21,749 nucleotides of DNA, taken from positions 1 through 21,749 of the IMG/VR virus record IMGVR_UViG_3300020395_000127; one strand, given 5' to 3'. This DNA is from a virus. Positions 7,497 to 20,121 of the stretch are shown here, one piece after another (position 1 is the first letter of the stretch; each line of letters begins with the position of its first letter). The position numbers and the translations under genes were made by a program. The notes beneath the pieces are model-generated. The model was not told the DNA's origin. It did no database searches and saw only the letters and a program-made list of their open reading frames with translations.

Positions 7497-7766
7497 ATGA
7501 CAACTAAAGTTCCAGAACACGATCTAACCCATGAGGTTTACATTGATCCTAAAGATCATAAAGAACATGTCAATCATGGTATGATTGAATATACTGAGGC
7601 AGATTTGGAAATGCACAATGATGCTTTCCATGCACATGATGATTCAGAAGTGGATAAGAATGAAGGTAAGATCAATGATTGGCACACTCGTCATGAAGAT
7701 AAGCATCTAGAAGTTTATTGTGATAACCATCCTGATTCATTAGAATGTAGAGTGTATGATGACTAA
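7497..7766 (+). CDS. Small His/Asp/Glu-rich protein of unknown function
   Basis: The ATG at 7497 follows the gp27 stop by one base and gives 89 residues. An in-frame upstream start at 7401 would overlap the gp27 gene by 95 bases and is unlikely. The protein has 12 histidines (about 13%), many Asp and Glu, and two cysteines near the C-terminus (YCDN and LECRV). No signal peptide, membrane helix or known domain is recognised. The composition would suit metal binding, but that is inference. Position between the two central hub genes suggests a role in hub assembly or a minor baseplate part. Its stop overlaps the gp5 start as TAATG. Confidence 0.75.
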   Translation: MTTKVPEHDLTHEVYIDPKDHKEHVNHGMIEYTEADLEMHNDAFHAHDDSEVDKNEGKINDWHTRHEDKHLEVYCDNHPDSLECRVYDD

Positions 7767-11023: not shown

Positions 11024-11809
11024 ATGGCTGGAATACCCGACATACAAGCACATAAGATCTACATTGGTTTAGAAGAACCACAAATAGATGATAGATCACT
11101 GAATAATTTGAATGGTGATAGACCTTATGAAGGTACTCTAGCTGTTGCTGGTCCTAGTTATCTTGGAGGTCACAGTGGTAGTGGTAATGGTACGTTGAAT
11201 GTTGGAACTGATATAGATGAGTGGTCACCAAATGTCAGTGGAAGAGCAGTTGATATAGAAGGTGATGTTAATATAGTGGGAGAACAAGGACCAGACCATG
11301 TATACATTGATGGTAATGTGTATGTTACTGGTACTGTCGATTGTTTATCAACTGGTAGATTAGAATCAAGACACCAAGAGGCAGATGGTAGACCAAAACC
11401 ATTTGATATGGTTCACCCATCTAAAGGTAAAGGTAACAGACTAAGGTATGCCTGTATTGAGGGACCAGAGGTTGCTGTATATTATAGAGGAAGACTGAAG
11501 GATAGTAATATTATACAACTACCTTCTCATTGGAAGGATCTAGTACATGCTGATAGTATTACTGTACAGATACAGAATATTGGAGTACCACAGATGATAA
11601 CTGTGGAGAGTTTTGATAACGAGAAGATAGTCTTAGAATCTAATACCATACCTGAGACTCCTATTGATTGTTTCTACCATGTGTATGGTGAGCGTAAGGA
11701 TGTCAATCATTTAGTTGTAGAGTATGAAGGAGATACTTGGGAAGACTATCCAGATCCAGACTATGATGATCCTCAATATAAGACAGGAGTTAATACTAAG
11801 ACTACGTGA
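11024..11809 (+). CDS. Structural protein with EGPE-type C-terminal domain
   Basis: This 261-aa protein starts one base after the previous stop. The N-terminal half is Gly-rich and beta-prone, with VDIEGDVNIVG and VYIDGNVYVTGTVD resembling fibre strands. From about residue 124 comes PFDMVHPSKGKGNRLRYACI followed by EGPEVAVYYRGRL, then IIQLPSHWKDLVHADSITVQ. This block is familiar from cyanophage tail-fibre and structural proteins; its exact role is not established and it differs from the S74 intramolecular chaperone. The C-terminus is acidic (EDYPDPDYDDPQ). It is likely a minor baseplate or fibre part. Its second half is paralogous to the small gene at 12344. Confidence 0.7.
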   Translation: MAGIPDIQAHKIYIGLEEPQIDDRSLNNLNGDRPYEGTLAVAGPSYLGGHSGSGNGTLNVGTDIDEWSPNVSGRAVDIEGDVNIVGEQGPDHVYIDGNVYVTGTVDCLSTGRLESRHQEADGRPKPFDMVHPSKGKGNRLRYACIEGPEVAVYYRGRLKDSNIIQLPSHWKDLVHADSITVQIQNIGVPQMITVESFDNEKIVLESNTIPETPIDCFYHVYGERKDVNHLVVEYEGDTWEDYPDPDYDDPQYKTGVNTKTT

Positions 11810-12357
11810 AAAAACTGATTTATATTGAGGATAATTTTTTATCCCCTGAACTTTGTGAACACTTCATCAATCTATCTAAAGCAAATAATAAAGAAATGCC
11901 TTATGGTAACTCTACTAGAGGTGGAGATACCTATCTTACTACTGTTGAGTGGAAAAATCATACAGCAGTATATCATGGTGGGAACGTAGATCCTACTGTC
12001 ATTCCACCAGAGGATGACGTAGTTATGAGAGTAACTAATCTTTGCAAGTCTTTTGATACTACAGCAAACTTAGATTACGTTGGTGTCATACGATGGCCAG
12101 TTGGTACATTTATGAAACCACATGTTGATGATAATAACAAGCACAACCCAGATATATTTGCAGCAATGCTATATCTAAATGATGATTATACTGGTGGTCA
12201 TACCTGCTTTGAGCACATAGAGGTAAAACCTGAGAAGGGTAAACTTATAGTATTCTCAAATGCTGAGTATTTACATTATGTTTCTCAGGTTGAAAAGTCA
12301 GAAAGATTTGTGTTGTCATTCTGGTACAATCATGCTATACTAGATGAAAATTCATAA
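11806..12357 (+). CDS. 2-oxoglutarate/Fe(II)-dependent oxygenase
   Basis: In this 183-aa protein the prolyl-4-hydroxylase-like double-stranded beta-helix is clear. The iron ligands are H106 and D108 in KPHVDDN and H157 in YLHYVS, with R167 in SERFVLSFW to bind 2-oxoglutarate. MLYLNDDYTGGHTCF (121-135) is the usual conserved strand-turn. Such enzymes hydroxylate proteins or small molecules and are frequent in marine T4-like phages, but their targets are generally unknown. Translation begins at GTG overlapping the previous stop (GTGA), with AAGACAGGAG upstream as a possible binding site. Lying inside the structural run suggests a virion protein such as a neighbour as substrate; that is inference. 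Confidence 0.88.
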   Translation: MKKLIYIEDNFLSPELCEHFINLSKANNKEMPYGNSTRGGDTYLTTVEWKNHTAVYHGGNVDPTVIPPEDDVVMRVTNLCKSFDTTANLDYVGVIRWPVGTFMKPHVDDNNKHNPDIFAAMLYLNDDYTGGHTCFEHIEVKPEKGKLIVFSNAEYLHYVSQVEKSERFVLSFWYNHAILDENS

Positions 12358-12619
12358 GATTATGGAAGTACGTGGTACAGTTAGTGTTGATGGTATTATT
12401 GAATTGCCAGAGACTTGGAGAGGACATATTGAACCAGAAACTATTCACGTTCAACTTACCCCAATCGGAGTATTTCAAGAATTATTTGTAAATAGTATTC
12501 AGTATGGTGCAAGAGTTGTTATACGTAATGCTGCTGGTGGACCTATCAAGGCATATTATGAGGTGACTGCTGATGCTAAATCACTTCCTGTTGTAGAGGA
12601 TGCTACTTGCGATATCTGA
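12344..12619 (+). CDS. Small EGPE-type domain protein, paralogue of the 11024 gene
   Basis: This protein is 91 aa from the ATG at 12344, or 85 aa from 12362, where the domain itself begins (MEVRGTVSVDGIIELPETW). Neither start has a clear ribosome binding site; 12344 overlaps the oxygenase gene by 14 bases. The sequence parallels the second half of the protein at 11024: RG, then IIxLPxxW, IxVQ, and IGVxQ, in the same order and spacing. So it is a stand-alone copy of that domain. It ends the late-type block; the sigma70-like promoter of the next genes begins inside its last codons. Function is unknown, probably structural or assembly-related. Confidence 0.72.
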   Translation: MKIHKIMEVRGTVSVDGIIELPETWRGHIEPETIHVQLTPIGVFQELFVNSIQYGARVVIRNAAGGPIKAYYEVTADAKSLPVVEDATCDI

Positions 12620-12635
12620 GCATCTATGCTATAAT
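12607..12635 (+). promoter_or_regulatory. Sigma70-type promoter with extended -10
   Basis: TTGCGA (12607-12612), a 17-base spacer, then TATAAT (12630-12635) preceded by TGC, an extended -10. Transcription would start near 12642, leaving about 14 bases before the ATG at 12656. This is a host-sigma type promoter, unlike the late promoters elsewhere in the window, and implies early transcription of the following genes. Confidence 0.7.
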
Positions 12636-12655
12636 GAGATACAAACTAAAAAACC

Positions 12656-12853
12656 ATGACTGAAAGACTAGAATTTGACGAATTTGTGGACGAGGTTAGA
12701 GTCAACCTTGCTGCCAGAAAGTTTGATATTTTTGGATCTAATGGTTCTCGTCAAACAGTTGTATGTGATAGTGCAGATGAGTTTATGTCAGTATTACAAG
12801 TTGTAAGGAGTGCAGATGGTATAGATGAAGAACTAGATATAGTATACGTATGA
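12656..12853 (+). CDS. Small acidic protein of unknown function
   Basis: This 65-aa protein is acidic, with about 13 Asp/Glu against about 7 Arg/Lys, and a predicted alpha/beta pattern: an N-terminal helix EFDEFVDEVRVNLAARKF, a strand around QTVVCD, a second helix (SADEFMSVLQVV) and a final strand DIVYV. It has no membrane segment or signal peptide, and a single cysteine. No family is recognised. It is the first gene behind the sigma70-like promoter, with a short leader and no clear ribosome binding site, and it is followed four bases later by a membrane protein gene. Small early phage proteins of this sort often modify host processes, but nothing in this sequence shows a target. Confidence 0.7.
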   Translation: MTERLEFDEFVDEVRVNLAARKFDIFGSNGSRQTVVCDSADEFMSVLQVVRSADGIDEELDIVYV

Positions 12854-12857
12854 TACA

Positions 12858-13160
12858 ATGACAGAAGAAAAGATCAAAAGTCTTTGTTATACTAAAGAAG
12901 AAGTTGATCTGATGATAGAGGCTGCTGTTGCTGAAGCAAGACGTATAGATGAAGAGTCTATGCGTAAGCATAATAGAGAAGCAACTATCATTAGCATGAT
13001 TCTTGGATTCACATGTCTAGCATTATTTTTAGATGGATTACTTCGCATACTTGGTATCATTCCACCATTCGCAGGTCTTGATGTTAATATCATCGATCAG
13101 ATTGTGGAGAAGGTTGAAACAGATATATATCCATTAGTACATAAAATACCTAGGATATGA
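12858..13160 (+). CDS. Small single-pass membrane protein
   Basis: This 100-aa protein has a charged helical N-terminus (residues 1-41, including KEEVDLMIEAAVAEARRIDE), one hydrophobic helix at about 42-68 (ATIISMILGFTCLALFLDGL then LRILGII) and a C-terminal part of about 30 residues beginning PPFAGLDVNIIDQIVEKVET. With positive charges before the helix (RKHNR) the N-terminus should stay in the cytoplasm. It has no lipobox and no holin hallmark beyond size and one helix; a holin role is not supported. The ATG follows the preceding stop by four bases, and its own stop overlaps the halogenase-like start (ATGA), so the three genes behave as one operon. Confidence 0.75.
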   Translation: MTEEKIKSLCYTKEEVDLMIEAAVAEARRIDEESMRKHNREATIISMILGFTCLALFLDGLLRILGIIPPFAGLDVNIIDQIVEKVETDIYPLVHKIPRI

Positions 13161-14416
13161 AAATTGCTGTTGTGGGTGCAGGTAATGCAGGTTGCATTTC
13201 TGCACTTTCTGCTTTAAAAATTTTTAGGCAGTTTGATATTCAAGGAGAAGTAGAGATATATTATGATCGAAATGTACCAATTCAAAAAGTTGGTCAAGGT
13301 AATAGTAGGGTAGCACCAAAATTAACATGGGAATTTATAGAAGATTGGGATGATTTTGTAGAGAAAACAGGTACTACTATAAAAACTGGAATATTATATC
13401 ATAATTGGGGAACTAAAAATGAGTGGAATTTTCATCCATTTGGAAGGATGAATGGTGAAGGGTGGGATCCTAAAAAGTTATCCGAGTTTTATTCTGACCC
13501 TGTTCAGTCAGACTGGTTTCATAACGCATTTCATTATATTCCGAAAAAATTCTCTGAGTATATTTTAGGTCTTAAGCAATTTAAAACATTTGAAAAAACT
13601 ATTGTAGATCCTGAAAAAGAAATAGATTCTGATGTTATTATTGATTGTAGGGGAAAATCTGATGATATAGATTATGAAAAGGTTATAAACCCTATTAATA
13701 GTGTTTTGATAGCGAGAAAAGAGGGTGCAGATCCAGATTTGAAATGGAGTGGTCATATTGCTACTCCACATGGATGGACATTTGAAATACCTAATACTGA
13801 TAGTGTATCTTATGGATATTTGTATAATAGTAATATTACAACTAAAGAGGAGGCAACAGAGGATTTCTTAGAAAGATTTAATCTATCATCAGTTGATTTT
13901 GATATGACTTTTGATCCTTACTGGGCAAAAAATCCTTTTGTTGGTGAAAGAACTTTTGTAAATGGAAATAGACATGCTTTTATAGAACCACTTGAGGCAA
14001 ATTCTTCAGATATTCATGGTAATGTTGCATCTGCTGGATTAAAATCTTTTCTTGGACATCAGAGTAAGGAAATAACAGTCAGAAGATTACAATATAAAAT
14101 GTGGAAATGGGAAAGTTTCTTTTTGTGGCATTATCGGGCAGGTTCTGCGTTTGATACTCCTTTTTGGAATTATGCAAAAAATTTGGATTATAGGGAGGAA
14201 GCTAAATCTAGATGTATGGAAACATTTGGTGGAGGTGAGGAGGAAAAGTTTTTTGGTGTAGAGAAATTATGTAGAGTTGGTAATTATGAATTGTTTCATA
14301 ATGGTCTTAGTTGGGATCATTCTACAAGGTTGTCTGATAAGAAATACTTAGTTCAAATACCAGATAGTCATCCTCGTAAGAAGTTTATTGAAAATGATAG
14401 AAATATAGAGGTATAA
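13157..14416 (+). CDS. Flavin-dependent tryptophan-halogenase-like protein
   Basis: This 419-aa protein (bacterial enzymes are usually about 500-540 aa) starts with an FAD-binding GxGxxG (VVGAGNAG, residues 5-12). QKVGQGNSRVAPKL (43-56) sits where halogenases have GVGEATIP. K76 in TIKTG aligns with catalytic K79 of PrnA, and E280 in FIEPLE aligns with PrnA E346. The halogenase W-x-W-x-I-P motif appears as GWTFEIP (206-212) with Phe for the second Trp, followed by SYGYLY. FAD-dependent C-H halogenation, or a related oxidation, is therefore plausible; the substrate is unknown. Tryptophan-halogenase-like genes are known in marine T4-like phages. It is coupled to the membrane-protein gene by ATGA and needs an outside flavin reductase; none is seen here. 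Confidence 0.82.
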   Translation: MKIAVVGAGNAGCISALSALKIFRQFDIQGEVEIYYDRNVPIQKVGQGNSRVAPKLTWEFIEDWDDFVEKTGTTIKTGILYHNWGTKNEWNFHPFGRMNGEGWDPKKLSEFYSDPVQSDWFHNAFHYIPKKFSEYILGLKQFKTFEKTIVDPEKEIDSDVIIDCRGKSDDIDYEKVINPINSVLIARKEGADPDLKWSGHIATPHGWTFEIPNTDSVSYGYLYNSNITTKEEATEDFLERFNLSSVDFDMTFDPYWAKNPFVGERTFVNGNRHAFIEPLEANSSDIHGNVASAGLKSFLGHQSKEITVRRLQYKMWKWESFFLWHYRAGSAFDTPFWNYAKNLDYREEAKSRCMETFGGGEEEKFFGVEKLCRVGNYELFHNGLSWDHSTRLSDKKYLVQIPDSHPRKKFIENDRNIEV

Positions 14417-14419
14417 ATA
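14412..14419 (+). promoter_or_regulatory. T4-type late promoter for the 1889-aa gene
   Basis: An exact TATAAATA includes the stop codon of the halogenase-like gene and lies 32 bases before the ATG at 14452. It restarts late transcription after the early-type block. CAGGA around 14437-14441 is a possible ribosome binding site for the next gene. Confidence 0.75.
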
Positions 14420-14451
14420 AGTTGAAGGAATGGTGTCAGGATTAATAAGTA

Positions 14452-17400
14452 ATGCCACTTAGCAGACTTGAAAATTTTCTAAAGAATGTTCAGGGTAACG
14501 TAATATACGTAAATCCTGAAGAACTTGATGCAACGGATGATATCAGTAATACTGGTAACTCTAGAACCCGTCCGTTCAAAACGATACAAAGAGCACTTTT
14601 AGAGTCTGCAAGATTCTCATATCAATTAGGAAAAGATAACGATAAATTTGATAAGACTACAATTATGGTGTCGCCTGGCGTACACTATATTGATAATAGA
14701 CCAGGATATCAAATAGATGCTGATGCTAATATTACAGATATAAATGGTTTATCAAAAAGTATAACTGAGTTTGGTATTGGTACTAATTTTGATGTTCAGA
14801 ATCTTGACAATGTATTATATCAGTTCAACTCAATTCATGGTGGTGTAATATTACCAAGGGGTACATCCATAGTTGGTGATGATCTAAGAAAAACTAAAAT
14901 AAGACCAAAATATATTCCAGACCCAACAGATAATGGTATTGAAAGATCAGCAATCTTTAGATTAACTGGATCTTGCTTTATTCATGGGTTTACCATATTT
15001 GATGGTGAGGGTTCAGATAGAATATTCAAAGATTATACTACTAATGTATATGCTCCTAACTTCTCACATCATAAACTAACAGTATTTGAATTTGCTGATG
15101 GTAAGAATACTGTTGCAGGTAAGAGTAATACTGATTTAGATATGTACTATGCTAAGCTAACGCTTGCATATGGTACTAACAGTGGTAGAGCATTACCTAA
15201 TTATCCTACCAATGATGATTTTGAAACTATTATTGATGAGAATAGAATTGTTGGTGCAGTATCACAAATAGGTGATATTGAGATAAATGACATTTATTCT
15301 GGTGTAGATTCAACATCTACAACTCCAACATCTATTGTAACTGTACAAACAAAGAGTGAGCATAGACTTGCTGTAGGAACACCTATTTTAATATTTGGTG
15401 TCAACAATGCTGAATATGATGGTAGTCATGTTGTAGCACAGGTAGTAAACGATACTCAATTTAGTTATACTGTTGCAACTACACCAACAACTACGGCAAC
15501 TCCAAGTCTTAGTGGACTTACTCCTACTGTAGCAATAGAGAGTGATACTGTAACTTCATCTTCACCTTACGTATTCAATTGTACTGTTAGATCAGTATAT
15601 GGTATGTGTGGTCTTCATGCTGATGGGGACAAAGCAACTGGCTTCAAGTCAATGCTTCTTGCTCAGTTTACTGGTATATCTCTTCAGAAGGATGATAACG
15701 CATTTGTAAAGTATAATACAACCTCTGGTGCTTGGGAAGATCAAGCAACACTAGGAACAACAACGACATTACATACTGATAGTTTAGCAAGATATAAACC
15801 AGAATATGAGCATTATCATGTAAAGGGATCTAATAATTCCGTAATGCAATTGGTTTCTGTATTTGCTATTGGATATGCTCATCACTTCAAGTCTACTGCT
15901 GGTGGTGATTTGTCTATCACCAACTCCAATTCTAACTTTGGTTCTAAAGCACTTGAGTCTGATGGATTTAGACGAGAAGCATTCCTCAAAGATGATAAGG
16001 CATTTATAACAAGTATAGTACCACCTAAAAAGACTTTTTCTACTGTTGAGAATATAAATTGGCAGTCTATTGATGTTGAGGTAACTGCTGGTTTATCTAC
16101 AGACACTAAATTGTACATTTGGGGTCACTCTGAGAAGGATAAACTACCAGATAAGACTGCTAGTGGATTTACTGTAGGTAATAAGATAGGTGAAAAATTA
16201 TATTGTACTATAGAAAACGTTACTTATGGTGCAGAAGTATTGATGACTGGTCCTGGTACTCAAGTATCAGGTAAGAAAGAAATATTTGTTGGTAGTAGTT
16301 CTGGTATTAGTTCTATTACAAGTAATACCTTTACCTTAGAGGATACTCATAAGTTTGTTGAGGGTGAGAATGTCAGAATTTATTCTGATAGTGGATCACT
16401 ACCTGACGGTATAGAGTATGGTAGAGATTATTATGTTGTAACTTCTGGTTTGAATGCAGATCAGGTCAAGGTTGCTACTACTTTCAATAATGCTATTGCT
16501 GGTAGTAATCTTACTGGTATAAACAATTTAGGTGGTAAGTTACGTATAGTATCGACTGTAGATTCTAAGGATCCAGGTGACGCAGGACATCCAATCCAAT
16601 ATCAAGATGGAACTGGTTGGTATGTTAATGTAGGTGCTGCTAATACACTAAGATCTGCAATAGTATCAAATCAAAGTAAGATAACACCACGTACTGTCAA
16701 TACATTTATTGAAAGAACAAGTGATAATAGAAAAGATCTAGAGAAAATTTATAGACTTAGGTATGTTATACCCGATGATTCTACATTAGCATCTCCACCA
16801 ACTAACGGATTCTCTATTGCTGAATCTGGGTCATTCCCTGATGATACTAACTACAAGAATGATTCTACAGTTATATCATCTACATCTAATCTAAGAATTG
16901 ATAGTACTATTGTTGATGCAACTTGGAACTCTAGTTCTAAAGCTGGTATTGTAACATCTCAATTCCCACATAGATTATCTGTTGGACAAGGTGTAGAAAT
17001 AAGAAGAGTTAGAAGTACAGAAAATACTGATGGTGAGGCTAATAATGGATATAATGGATTGTTTGATGTTCTAGCAATTGATGATTCTAGAACATTTAGA
17101 ATTGGTATAAACACTAATCCAGGTGGTATTTCAACTATCACCACTAATATACCATATACTAGGCATGATCAATCTATTGTAGGATCTGGTAGAACATTTA
17201 CACCATTCTTTAATAAACGTGATCTTGGTATTGGATATCAGATTTATACTAATGAAGAAATTCAGGAATACAAGAAGGATATTCAGGATGGTATCTATGA
17301 TGTAACTTTATTATCATACTTAGCACAACCTGATATAACACCATTCTCTACTACAACTAATTATTTTCCACAGGATCCTAATGATATAAGACCAAAAGTA

Positions 17401-20121
17401 GATAAAGATAATCCTAATGAAGATCCTAATGCTGCTACATCATATGCTTTACGTGATGATATAGGTATTGTTCAAACAAATGATCCTTCAAATAGTATTT
17501 CTAGAGAAGGTATACATTCATTCTTAGAGAAAACCAACATTGGTATTGGTATTACTGGTGCTTTATCAACTGGGTCAAACATGTTTGTTGATGCAGGTGT
17601 AGAGCATGGATTCAATGCTATTTTATCTGTTACTGACCTAAATGGTGGTACTAACTATGAAGCATCTTCATCTTGGTTCAATGTAAATCTATCAGGTGGT
17701 ACAGGTAAAGGTGCTACTGCTGATGTTACAGTCAATTCATTAGGTGTTATTGCTAGTGTTGTTATAAACAACCACGGATCAGGATATAGTGTAAATGATG
17801 TTGTAACTATCAAGGATGTTCCTTTTGCTTCTTCTGGGACAGATGGTACAGTAAGGATTGATAGTATCAACAATAACATTGGTGATGTTGTTCAAGTTGT
17901 TGGAGTAGGAAGCACTGGATATAATGGACTGCATAGAATTACCTCAGTAACTGAACCACAAAGAATTGTATATGATGGAACTGGAGTAGATTCAAGTTCT
18001 GGTGGATTCATTTATCATGTTGGTGTTACTACTGCAGTCAATAATATTGTACATGATTCTGTTAGTGGTATTGCTACAGTTACATTATATTCTGACATTG
18101 GTCTAAAACGTGGTGATCAGATTGTAATTGATGGAGCTAATGCAGAATATAATGGTACTCATTATGTTACTGATAGAATAGGTTATGGATCTTCTGTAAA
18201 TGTAAACATTGGTGTATTAAGTAGTTCGCCCACATTTAGTGGTGCTAGTGCAATTGCTCATGGTGCAGGAATTGCAGCAAGAGGTAACAATCAGACTATT
18301 CCGTTATACGGTGGAGTTACAACACCTCTAACTACAGGTCTTACTACAACTACATCATCTATCTCATTACTTGAGACAGGTATGCTTCGTAGAGGAGACT
18401 ATCTGCAGATTGAGGATGAGATTGTAAGAATCTCTAATAATGATAGTACTTCAATTATTAGAGGAGTATTAGGAACTAATGCAACCAATCATGATAAGAA
18501 TGTTGCTGCAATAAAGATAAAGGTATTACCAGTAGAATCTAGAAGATATTCTATCTTACGTGCTTCTGGACATACATTTGAATATATTGGTCATGGTCCA
18601 GGTAACTATTCTACTGCGTTGCCACAAACTCAAGACAGAATACTTACTGATAAGCAACAGTTAGCAGCACAGGCAAATCAAACAAGAGGTGGACTTGTTG
18701 TTTATACTGGTATGAACGACAAGGGTGAGTTCTATGTTGGTCGTAAGAAGACTGATGCTGTAACAGGTGAAAGTAGTTCTACTATAGATGAACTTGATAC
18801 AGCTCCAACTGGATCTTCATTACCTAAGTCTCTCCTGCTCAATTCTTTGACAGCAGATGACCTATCAGTAAATGAAAATCTTTATAGTAATGGTAATACT
18901 GATGTAGTTGATATAAAACTAAGAGGTAATAGACAAGGTACACAAGGAGTACTTTATTTGGGTGTTCAGGGAACTGAACCTACTACAACTAATCAACAGG
19001 ATAATATCCTATTCAATACAAATCCTGTTCCAGGTGGTTATATTGGATGGGTAAGGACAAATGGTGCTGGTGTTGAAAGATGGCAACAGTTCGGTCCTAT
19101 ATCTGTTGAGAATGGAGTTGAACATTATTCTTTTGCAAAACTTGCTGTAGGTCAGTCTAGTGTAGATGCAGGTGAAGTTTTCAGTGTTAATGGTGGTGTA
19201 AGTTTCGGTAGTCTGAAGATTGATGATCTAACCACTGGTCGTGTAGCTCTTGTCGGAACCTCAGGTGAACTTGAGGATAGTGCAAGTTTTACTTGGGCTG
19301 GTTCTACTCTAACTATCCACACACTGTCGGTAAGTAATAATATCACTGTTGGTGGAGCAAGTTCAATCACAGGCAATGCCTACACTGGAGGTGATTCTAC
19401 CTTTGGTGGAGGTTTGAACTCTGCTGGAGTTTGTACCGCAACTGCCTTTGTAGGTAGTGGTATTATACCTGTTGGTGGTATTATAATGTGGTCAGGTACT
19501 GATGGTGACATACCAACAAACTGGAATTTATGTGATGGTACAAATGGTACTCCTAACTTGGTCGATAGGTTTATTGTTGGTAGAGGTAATGCATACTCAT
19601 CTGGTCAGACTGGTGGTCAAACAGATACCTCACTAATTGCTCACGATCATAGTATTACCACTTTCCTTTCAGATCCTGGTCATACTCATAGTAATAGTCT
19701 TAGTGGTGGAAATCACACTCACGCTAATTCACTTGGCGGTGGTGATCACTCACACAGTGTAACGAATTCACCTCATGATCATGAGATGGATCACACTCAT
19801 AGTTACAATGCATCAGATGCAAATGAGAGTGTTGTTACGTCAGGTGGTGCATCCAACGTTGGTAATAGTATATCAAGTGCCACAACTGCTGGATTGAGTA
19901 CTTCCTTCACTGAAGAGACAACAGTTAGTTCCTTCGCTAATACAAATAACGCTGGAGTTACTATTACCAATGCTGCTGCTGACGCAGGTGTGAGTCTAAC
20001 AAATGCATCTCAGACAACTGGAATCGGTGTTACTGCATCCTCTGACAGTCAGGGAACTTCAGCAACTAATAAGAACTTACCACCATATTATGCAATTGCT
20101 TACATTATGCGTACTGCTTGA
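14452..20121 (+). CDS. Giant tail-fibre/structural protein, pectin-lyase-like start and collar-domain end
   Basis: This 1889-aa protein is multidomain. Residues 1-200 are a pectin-lyase-like start (VIYVNPEELDATDD, then RPFKTIQRALLESA and MVSPGVHYI). Residues 365-527 are a block shared with cyanophage structural proteins (VYGMCGLHADGDKATGFKSM, YAHHFKS, SITNSNSNFG). A module of the type H-x-L-x-x-G-x-x-V-x-I plus EYDG/YNG/EYNG recurs near 301-347, 836-892, 1147-1183 and 1208-1255; a diverged copy is near 626-683. A GSGY element lies at 1060-1122. Residues 1363-1443 carry RRYSILRASGHTFEYIGHGP. The C-terminus is a collar domain like T4 gp12: PVGGIIMWSG near 1674, six HxH motifs at 1731-1783 that could bind metal, and LPPYYAIAYIMRTA at the end. 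Host binding is the likely role; the exact T4 equivalent is unclear. Confidence 0.82.
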   Translation: MPLSRLENFLKNVQGNVIYVNPEELDATDDISNTGNSRTRPFKTIQRALLESARFSYQLGKDNDKFDKTTIMVSPGVHYIDNRPGYQIDADANITDINGLSKSITEFGIGTNFDVQNLDNVLYQFNSIHGGVILPRGTSIVGDDLRKTKIRPKYIPDPTDNGIERSAIFRLTGSCFIHGFTIFDGEGSDRIFKDYTTNVYAPNFSHHKLTVFEFADGKNTVAGKSNTDLDMYYAKLTLAYGTNSGRALPNYPTNDDFETIIDENRIVGAVSQIGDIEINDIYSGVDSTSTTPTSIVTVQTKSEHRLAVGTPILIFGVNNAEYDGSHVVAQVVNDTQFSYTVATTPTTTATPSLSGLTPTVAIESDTVTSSSPYVFNCTVRSVYGMCGLHADGDKATGFKSMLLAQFTGISLQKDDNAFVKYNTTSGAWEDQATLGTTTTLHTDSLARYKPEYEHYHVKGSNNSVMQLVSVFAIGYAHHFKSTAGGDLSITNSNSNFGSKALESDGFRREAFLKDDKAFITSIVPPKKTFSTVENINWQSIDVEVTAGLSTDTKLYIWGHSEKDKLPDKTASGFTVGNKIGEKLYCTIENVTYGAEVLMTGPGTQVSGKKEIFVGSSSGISSITSNTFTLEDTHKFVEGENVRIYSDSGSLPDGIEYGRDYYVVTSGLNADQVKVATTFNNAIAGSNLTGINNLGGKLRIVSTVDSKDPGDAGHPIQYQDGTGWYVNVGAANTLRSAIVSNQSKITPRTVNTFIERTSDNRKDLEKIYRLRYVIPDDSTLASPPTNGFSIAESGSFPDDTNYKNDSTVISSTSNLRIDSTIVDATWNSSSKAGIVTSQFPHRLSVGQGVEIRRVRSTENTDGEANNGYNGLFDVLAIDDSRTFRIGINTNPGGISTITTNIPYTRHDQSIVGSGRTFTPFFNKRDLGIGYQIYTNEEIQEYKKDIQDGIYDVTLLSYLAQPDITPFSTTTNYFPQDPNDIRPKVDKDNPNEDPNAATSYALRDDIGIVQTNDPSNSISREGIHSFLEKTNIGIGITGALSTGSNMFVDAGVEHGFNAILSVTDLNGGTNYEASSSWFNVNLSGGTGKGATADVTVNSLGVIASVVINNHGSGYSVNDVVTIKDVPFASSGTDGTVRIDSINNNIGDVVQVVGVGSTGYNGLHRITSVTEPQRIVYDGTGVDSSSGGFIYHVGVTTAVNNIVHDSVSGIATVTLYSDIGLKRGDQIVIDGANAEYNGTHYVTDRIGYGSSVNVNIGVLSSSPTFSGASAIAHGAGIAARGNNQTIPLYGGVTTPLTTGLTTTTSSISLLETGMLRRGDYLQIEDEIVRISNNDSTSIIRGVLGTNATNHDKNVAAIKIKVLPVESRRYSILRASGHTFEYIGHGPGNYSTALPQTQDRILTDKQQLAAQANQTRGGLVVYTGMNDKGEFYVGRKKTDAVTGESSSTIDELDTAPTGSSLPKSLLLNSLTADDLSVNENLYSNGNTDVVDIKLRGNRQGTQGVLYLGVQGTEPTTTNQQDNILFNTNPVPGGYIGWVRTNGAGVERWQQFGPISVENGVEHYSFAKLAVGQSSVDAGEVFSVNGGVSFGSLKIDDLTTGRVALVGTSGELEDSASFTWAGSTLTIHTLSVSNNITVGGASSITGNAYTGGDSTFGGGLNSAGVCTATAFVGSGIIPVGGIIMWSGTDGDIPTNWNLCDGTNGTPNLVDRFIVGRGNAYSSGQTGGQTDTSLIAHDHSITTFLSDPGHTHSNSLSGGNHTHANSLGGGDHSHSVTNSPHDHEMDHTHSYNASDANESVVTSGGASNVGNSISSATTAGLSTSFTEETTVSSFANTNNAGVTITNAAADAGVSLTNASQTTGIGVTASSDSQGTSATNKNLPPYYAIAYIMRTA

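Follow-up and report, generated by a model that had tools for sequence, protein, structure and literature searches.

This study indicates that positions 12607 to 14416 of a viral sequence are probably the local version of an early-expression island located inside the structural gene cluster of marine cyanomyoviruses. The best reading of this island is that it is led by a host-sigma promoter and expressed early (or early/middle), with a conserved leader gene followed by exchangeable cargo. The fixed part is the promoter with the first gene and the moving part is the cargo, which is the opposite of the view, taken in the initial annotation, that the block is an inserted expression unit. Most relatives examined have the promoter and first gene at this place, so that these two are near-core, whereas the halogenase gene was swapped alone or absent. 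The synteny comparison among relatives, suggested earlier for deciding whether the block is present or absent as a unit, revealed that the three genes are gained and lost separately.

The sequence analysed, referred to as the window, is the whole stretch of 21,749 bases of an IMG/VR virus record. It is a 21.7-kb piece of a marine T4-like cyanomyovirus, harboring the genes of the cyanomyovirus structural cluster (a tail tube-like protein, the baseplate-hub region and fibres), and its best DNA matches were phages of Synechococcus and Prochlorococcus together with viruses from marine single cells. Relatives were obtained from viral contigs by means of the halogenase (one locus), the membrane protein (407 loci, of which 80 were retained) and the 2OG oxygenase (87 loci, of which 80 were retained), and annotated isolates were added.

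Table 1. Coordinates of the island, its promoters and its flanking genes in the window
Feature	Coordinates	Strand	Basis
Left neighbour, 91-aa ORF	12344..12619	+	Last codons contain the -35 of the 12607-12635 promoter
Host-sigma70-type promoter, TTGCGA-N17-TATAAT, extended -10 (TG)	12607..12635	+	Sequence and conserved place
Leader gene, 65 aa, DUF7294 (PF23966, PHROG 662, T4-GC 29)	12656..12853	+	Pfam, PHROGs
Cargo, 100-aa one-helix membrane protein (PHROG 7360/1096; T4-GC 246)	12858..13160	+	PHROGs, hydropathy, P-SSM7 annotation
Cargo, 419-aa flavin-dependent halogenase-like protein (PF04820, PHROG 2928)	13157..14416	+	Pfam, motifs, profiles
T4-type late promoter motif TATAAATA, right island border	14412..14419	+	Sequence; shares bases with the halogenase stop codon
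Right neighbour, 1889-aa fibre protein, late structural gene	14452..20121	+	Matches the annotated fibre genes of isolates

Conservation of the host-sigma-type promoter

The promoter claimed at 12607-12635 is present with both hexamers and the TG, and it does stand at the head of several non-structural genes that are surrounded by late structural ones, with a site at the same place in relatives. An iterated profile of the 65-aa protein gathered 82 sequences, counting the window and its copy L001, and their upstream regions were scored after thinning of near-identical ones to 52. At least 10/12 matches to the TTGACA/TATAAT type were recorded in 43 of these 52 and at least 9/12 in 49, and a 17-nt spacer was also found in 49. 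At the 10/12 threshold the controls yielded 0-29% across 13 other gene sets, among which the set for the 91-aa ORF takes in hits inside its paralogue p261, and 5% of 2080 random windows. The hexamers, the spacing of about 17 nt and the conservation upstream of a gene are thus what is expected of a sigma70-type promoter. Weak exceptions were observed in P-SSM2, P-TIM68 and L094 (8/12 each), and in P-HM2 and P-SSM2 a whole-genome scan allowing one mismatch gave no hit at the island place.

The earlier description of a good host-sigma promoter stands as far as conservation across relatives is concerned, but not for the consensus match alone, which is at chance level: between 11800 and 15200 (3.4 kb) 18 promoter-like sites were seen against 18.4 expected from shuffled sequence, four of them at 10/12. 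The TGNTATAAT count in the window was 6 against 2.5 expected. Motif statistics of the window alone were consequently dropped as promoter evidence, and the significance of the site comes from its being conserved. In the clade of the window the -35 reads TTGCGA and lies within the last codons of the 91-aa ORF, whereas distant relatives have another gene upstream of DUF7294 and mostly TTGACA as -35, so that coding constraint does not explain the site. Judged from this conservation, the promoter is probably real, with a predicted transcript start near 12642. A link between a weak promoter and an empty cargo slot was considered and rejected, as P-SSM2 and P-TIM68 fit it but L154, L157, L158 and L108 display short leader-to-fibre gaps and yet good promoters.

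The leader gene and its counterpart in other isolates

The 65-aa protein scored 41.9 bits against DUF7294, above the cut-off of 27, and its T4-GC 29 number was taken from the annotation of S-SM2, P-SSM2 and P-HM2. The gene was also noticed, present but unannotated, in S-8S55 (L175, 3501-3632) and S-BM3 (L172, 3501-3680). The protein is acidic, with a net charge of -9 and a mean of -7.2 over 28 DUF7294 sequences. Its structure model, which is confident, predicts a beta-beta-beta-alpha-beta order. Matches to the FtsH periplasmic domain, eL38 or PH-like folds were too weak for use: the best Foldseek hit (FtsH periplasmic N-domain/eL38-like) gave E 0.02 and a TM of about 0.5, the best VIA hit (Z 6.5, rmsd 2.5, 58 residues) is within the range of common arrangements, and the sequence profile against the PDB found nothing convincing (best E 0.07). 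A literature search by the names DUF7294 and T4-GC 29 matched only an unrelated paper. From the place, size, charge and promoter of the gene, a host-takeover role may be guessed.

In a second set of isolates (Syn9, P-RSM4, S-ShM2, P-SSM7, P-SSM4, S-RIM2, S-MbCM25 and S-CREM1), the first gene after gp5 matches T4-GC 341/1098 or Syn9 gp21, with the gene of this type lying one gene further on in P-SSM7. By structure search DUF7294 was connected with E3SLR8, a P-RSM4 protein of 92 residues, which was equated with PRSM4_031 by equal protein length only, and the DUF7294 profile matched three members of the T4-GC 341 set (probability 89%, E 2e-6). DUF7294 and T4-GC 341/1098 are therefore probable distant homologues in the same position. 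Again, a sigma70-type site of at least 10/12 stands upstream of the T4-GC 341/1098 gene in 8/8 isolates and upstream of the next gene in 1/8; in Syn9 this site matches the consensus fully, as four other sites in that genome do.

Single-sequence tblastn against phage records disclosed 44 matching S-SM2 DUF7294 and 288 matching Syn9 gp21, counts that include near-identical genomes and may overlap. Comparatively, a gp17 search returned 517 records, of which 462 are named Synechococcus, Prochlorococcus or Cyanophage, and records with these three names matching DUF7294 or Syn9 gp21 numbered 326, with possible overlap between the two sets; hence the leader gene is unseen by single-sequence tblastn in many of them.

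Late promoters and the borders of the island

The late motif had been claimed at three sites. It was found exactly, as TATAAATA, at 1374 and 14412, while the copy at 20120 is GATAAATA, a sequence compatible with the cyanophage consensus NATAAATA. All three stand about 25-35 nt upstream of structural ORFs (1403, 14452 and 20152), and the window contains three copies of ATAAATA, all on the + strand, below the 9.7 expected. Within 80 nt of the fibre start, NATAAATA was detected in 29 of 37 thinned loci, 17 of them with exact TATAAATA and the others mostly with CTAAATA, against 1.6% of 5520 random 80-mers; a T4-type late promoter thus precedes this late structural gene well above chance, and the claim that a late promoter restarts right after the block was borne out. 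The same motif was found within 80 nt before DUF7294 in none of the 52 thinned sequences.

No terminator-like site was detected in the window between 11800 and the island. A terminator-like hairpin before the fibre late promoter was recorded in 7/35 thinned loci, compared with 0.9% of random sequences, and a terminator closing the island was discarded as a feature since it occurs in only these loci and not in the window. As no terminator was found close to either end of the island in the window, it is also likely to be read through late in infection, and it may not be a separate transcript.

Variable content of the cargo slot

The distance from leader to fibre ranges from 38 nt in P-SSM2, where nothing lies between the two genes, and 49 nt in P-TIM68, up to 2118 nt in S-CAM9. 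Among the cargo of relatives are tRNAs (Leu, Thr, Gly, Ile, Pro, Met), CpeT, ACP, 2OG oxygenases, small unknowns, a Mom-family protein (PF25680) and a protein resembling Phd/YefM that scores under the Pfam cut-off, and the membrane protein occurs with or without the halogenase. The Mom-family gene, of DNA-modification type, was noticed in L135-L139 (e.g. L137, 7815-8441). Three isolates with T4-GC 341 (P-SSM7, P-SSM4 and S-CREM1) have a second gene annotated as a Phd-like or YefM-like antitoxin. Such antitoxin genes follow T4-GC 341 at 2692-2904 in L186, 2686-2949 in L187 and 2680-2931 in L190; the antitoxin-named gene of L186 and L187 is T4-GC 342, and no toxin is named alongside in these three.

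In the window the three non-structural genes are tightly packed, as had been stated, with 4 nt between the first two and an ATGA overlap of the halogenase start with the membrane gene stop, and the TAA of the halogenase lies inside TATAAATA. The halogenase therefore fills the exact span from the membrane gene stop to the late promoter, and in L005 and L042, which are without it, the membrane gene is a few bases from the late promoter.

The roles of the catalytic lysine and glutamate of flavin-dependent halogenases are known from PrnA and RebH. The predicted halogenase scored 88.9 bits against PF04820 (cut-off 21), and among 11 phage halogenase sequences GxGxxG and K76 are invariant and the EPLE glutamates nearly so; the sequence accordingly combines the Pfam score, the GxGxxG motif and the catalytic residues of this family. 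Its Trp motif is GWTFEIP, not WxWxIP, and its profile matches are PrnA, RebH and VirX1. VirX1 of cyanophage Syn10 (PDB 6qgm), as presented in PMC8407142, is likewise encoded by a phage and belongs to the same halogenase superfamily (profile E 3e-28), but it has 531 aa against 419 aa here and is distant in sequence; for the protein of the window, halogenating activity is a prediction.

Between the window and L083, DNA identity is 100% for p261, 97% for the 2OG gene, 97% for promoter plus DUF7294 and 98% for the membrane gene, but only 69% over 329 nt for the halogenase. A like break in halogenase identity was observed in L086 (65%) and L087 (73%), while L084 is at 99%. Going by these identities, the pattern is best read as allelic exchange of the halogenase between near-identical flanks. 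In other phages the halogenase is found next to talC near gp5 (S-ShM2), after the major head gene (Sf-CH8) and near PTOX (S-SSM7).

The membrane protein has one hydrophobic stretch, at about residues 44-62. Its gene follows DUF7294 directly in 15/80 loci, with 4/80 too near the locus start to judge, and it is clade-specific. It also occurs outside the island: in P-SSM7 it adjoins purM, with gp16 and gp17 on its two sides, and in P-HM2 it is a neighbour of psbD. Relatives of this protein are annotated 'gp7' at 4962-5291 of L161 (P-SSM7) and 3917-4288 of L183 (P-HM2); given the size of T4 gp7, it is unlikely that a one-helix protein of about 100-120 aa is T4 gp7. In L181 and L071 the gene is once more close to a relative of the halogenase, in the order halogenase, 81-aa ORF, membrane gene. 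There (L181, 2352-5312; L071, 521-2809) the pair adjoins ORFs that look endonuclease-like by eye, and the L181 setting also has 2OG-like and NrdB-like ORFs, named by eye only.

Proposed expression of the island and alternative explanations

In the mechanism proposed, the fixed left parts are a promoter of host-sigma70 type and the leader gene, DUF7294 or T4-GC 341, placed after the baseplate-hub region (gp5 and its neighbours), the fixed right part is the T4-type (gp55) late promoter ahead of the fibre, and between them lies the cargo slot, in which recombination would replace genes. Once infection begins, the unmodified RNA polymerase of the host would initiate near 12642, giving one short polycistronic transcript that covers DUF7294, the membrane protein and the halogenase; at a later stage, transcription directed by gp55 would begin at 14412 for the fibre and would probably also read through the island from upstream. 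According to the account of transcription in PMC2984593, early cyanomyovirus genes are believed to be transcribed by the host sigma70 polymerase in unmodified form and late genes from NATAAATA by means of a gp55 homologue, and these phages are without the T4 factors modifying host polymerase for early and middle genes. Since early genes are thought to use host sigma70 polymerase, the island should be read before the surrounding structural genes; the early timing, the operon structure and the host-takeover or metabolic role of the products are what we infer for it.

It is hardly credible that the promoter motif arose by chance in AT-rich DNA ahead of ordinary late genes: the motif count in the window does equal the shuffled expectation, but the spacing and place of the site are fixed across divergent phages, and whole genomes display a strand asymmetry of the motif. 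Sites with at most one mismatch in eight of them stood, forward to reverse, at 16:1 (Syn9), 25:1 (S-SM2), 14:2, 22:5, 2:24, 22:0, 8:0 and 34:2, with few matches to the reversed motif pattern. A moron-like insert, in which promoter and all three genes arrived together as one expression unit, is very improbable; the lower G+C of the halogenase (32.5% against 36.5% for the window) and the structural genes flanking the block would suit it, but many relatives have promoter and DUF7294 without the membrane gene or halogenase, the membrane gene occurs without the halogenase in L005, L042 and others, and the halogenase was exchanged alone between the window and L083.

A less remote account, though one we still consider rather unlikely, is that the island is early/middle or constitutive, with sigma70 expression throughout infection plus late read-through, so that its place outweighs its timing. 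Middle genes of cyanomyoviruses, and not early ones alone, may be served by sigma70-type sites, and some think, according to the account in PMC2984593, that middle genes combine early and late promoters; both motifs are described on psbA of S-PM2 in PMC5931967, and the window has no terminator before or after the island. Against this stands the lack of a late motif before DUF7294 in the thinned sequences. The early island with exchangeable cargo remains the preferred reading. Its bolder form, that DUF7294/T4-GC 341 is an ancient, near-universal acidic early takeover protein of marine cyanomyoviruses whose promoter has been retained within the late cluster because it guarantees the early delivery of any cargo that recombines in behind it, making the place a plug-in expression slot, is advanced as a doubtful, tentative idea; if true, the slot would pass halogenases, antitoxins, tRNAs and photosynthesis genes between phages.

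Relation to known variable regions

A moron is a phage gene with its own promoter (and terminator), inserted between late genes and present or absent as a unit. The island resembles this in that its non-structural genes with a host-type promoter lie between late genes, but it is not present or absent as a unit, its promoter and first gene are near-core and no terminator was found in the window. The hyperplastic region g15-g18 of cyanomyoviruses (Millard et al. 2009, as cited in PMC2984593) is, in that account, likewise a variable-gene slot within the structural module, host-like metabolic genes included; the island differs in sitting between the gp5 region and the fibre and in starting with a host-sigma promoter and a leader gene that are both conserved. 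Sullivan et al. 2010 (PMC3037559), where the T4-GC families are defined, place talC and cp12 at variable positions, near gp5 among them, and their account of these genes does not describe a conserved promoter and leader gene there. A search of the literature on cyanophage early promoters, transcriptomes and variable regions, with Doron 2016 (Syn9), Lin 2016 (P-SSM2) and Millard 2009 outside its scope, gave no earlier description that we recognised. Cyanophage variable regions are usually listed by gene content, and here the insertion place itself has a conserved switch and first gene, which would be a simple explanation for early expression of newly acquired genes within a late cluster and which singles out the small conserved protein DUF7294 for study.

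Genes upstream of the island

The 90-aa protein at 7497 was tried as a synteny marker for distant phages and performed poorly, with 10/78 records well covered. The 91-aa ORF resembles part of the 261-aa protein p261 (11024-11809; tblastn 32%, residues 10-81), and both match PHROG 17490; by this similarity, it looks like a duplicated fragment of the p261 gene. The 261-aa protein is two genes upstream of the 91-aa ORF, separated from it by a 2OG-Fe(II) oxygenase (11809-12357, Pfam 52.8 bits). This oxygenase also matched PHROG families labelled DNA endonuclease, a label that looks like a library error.
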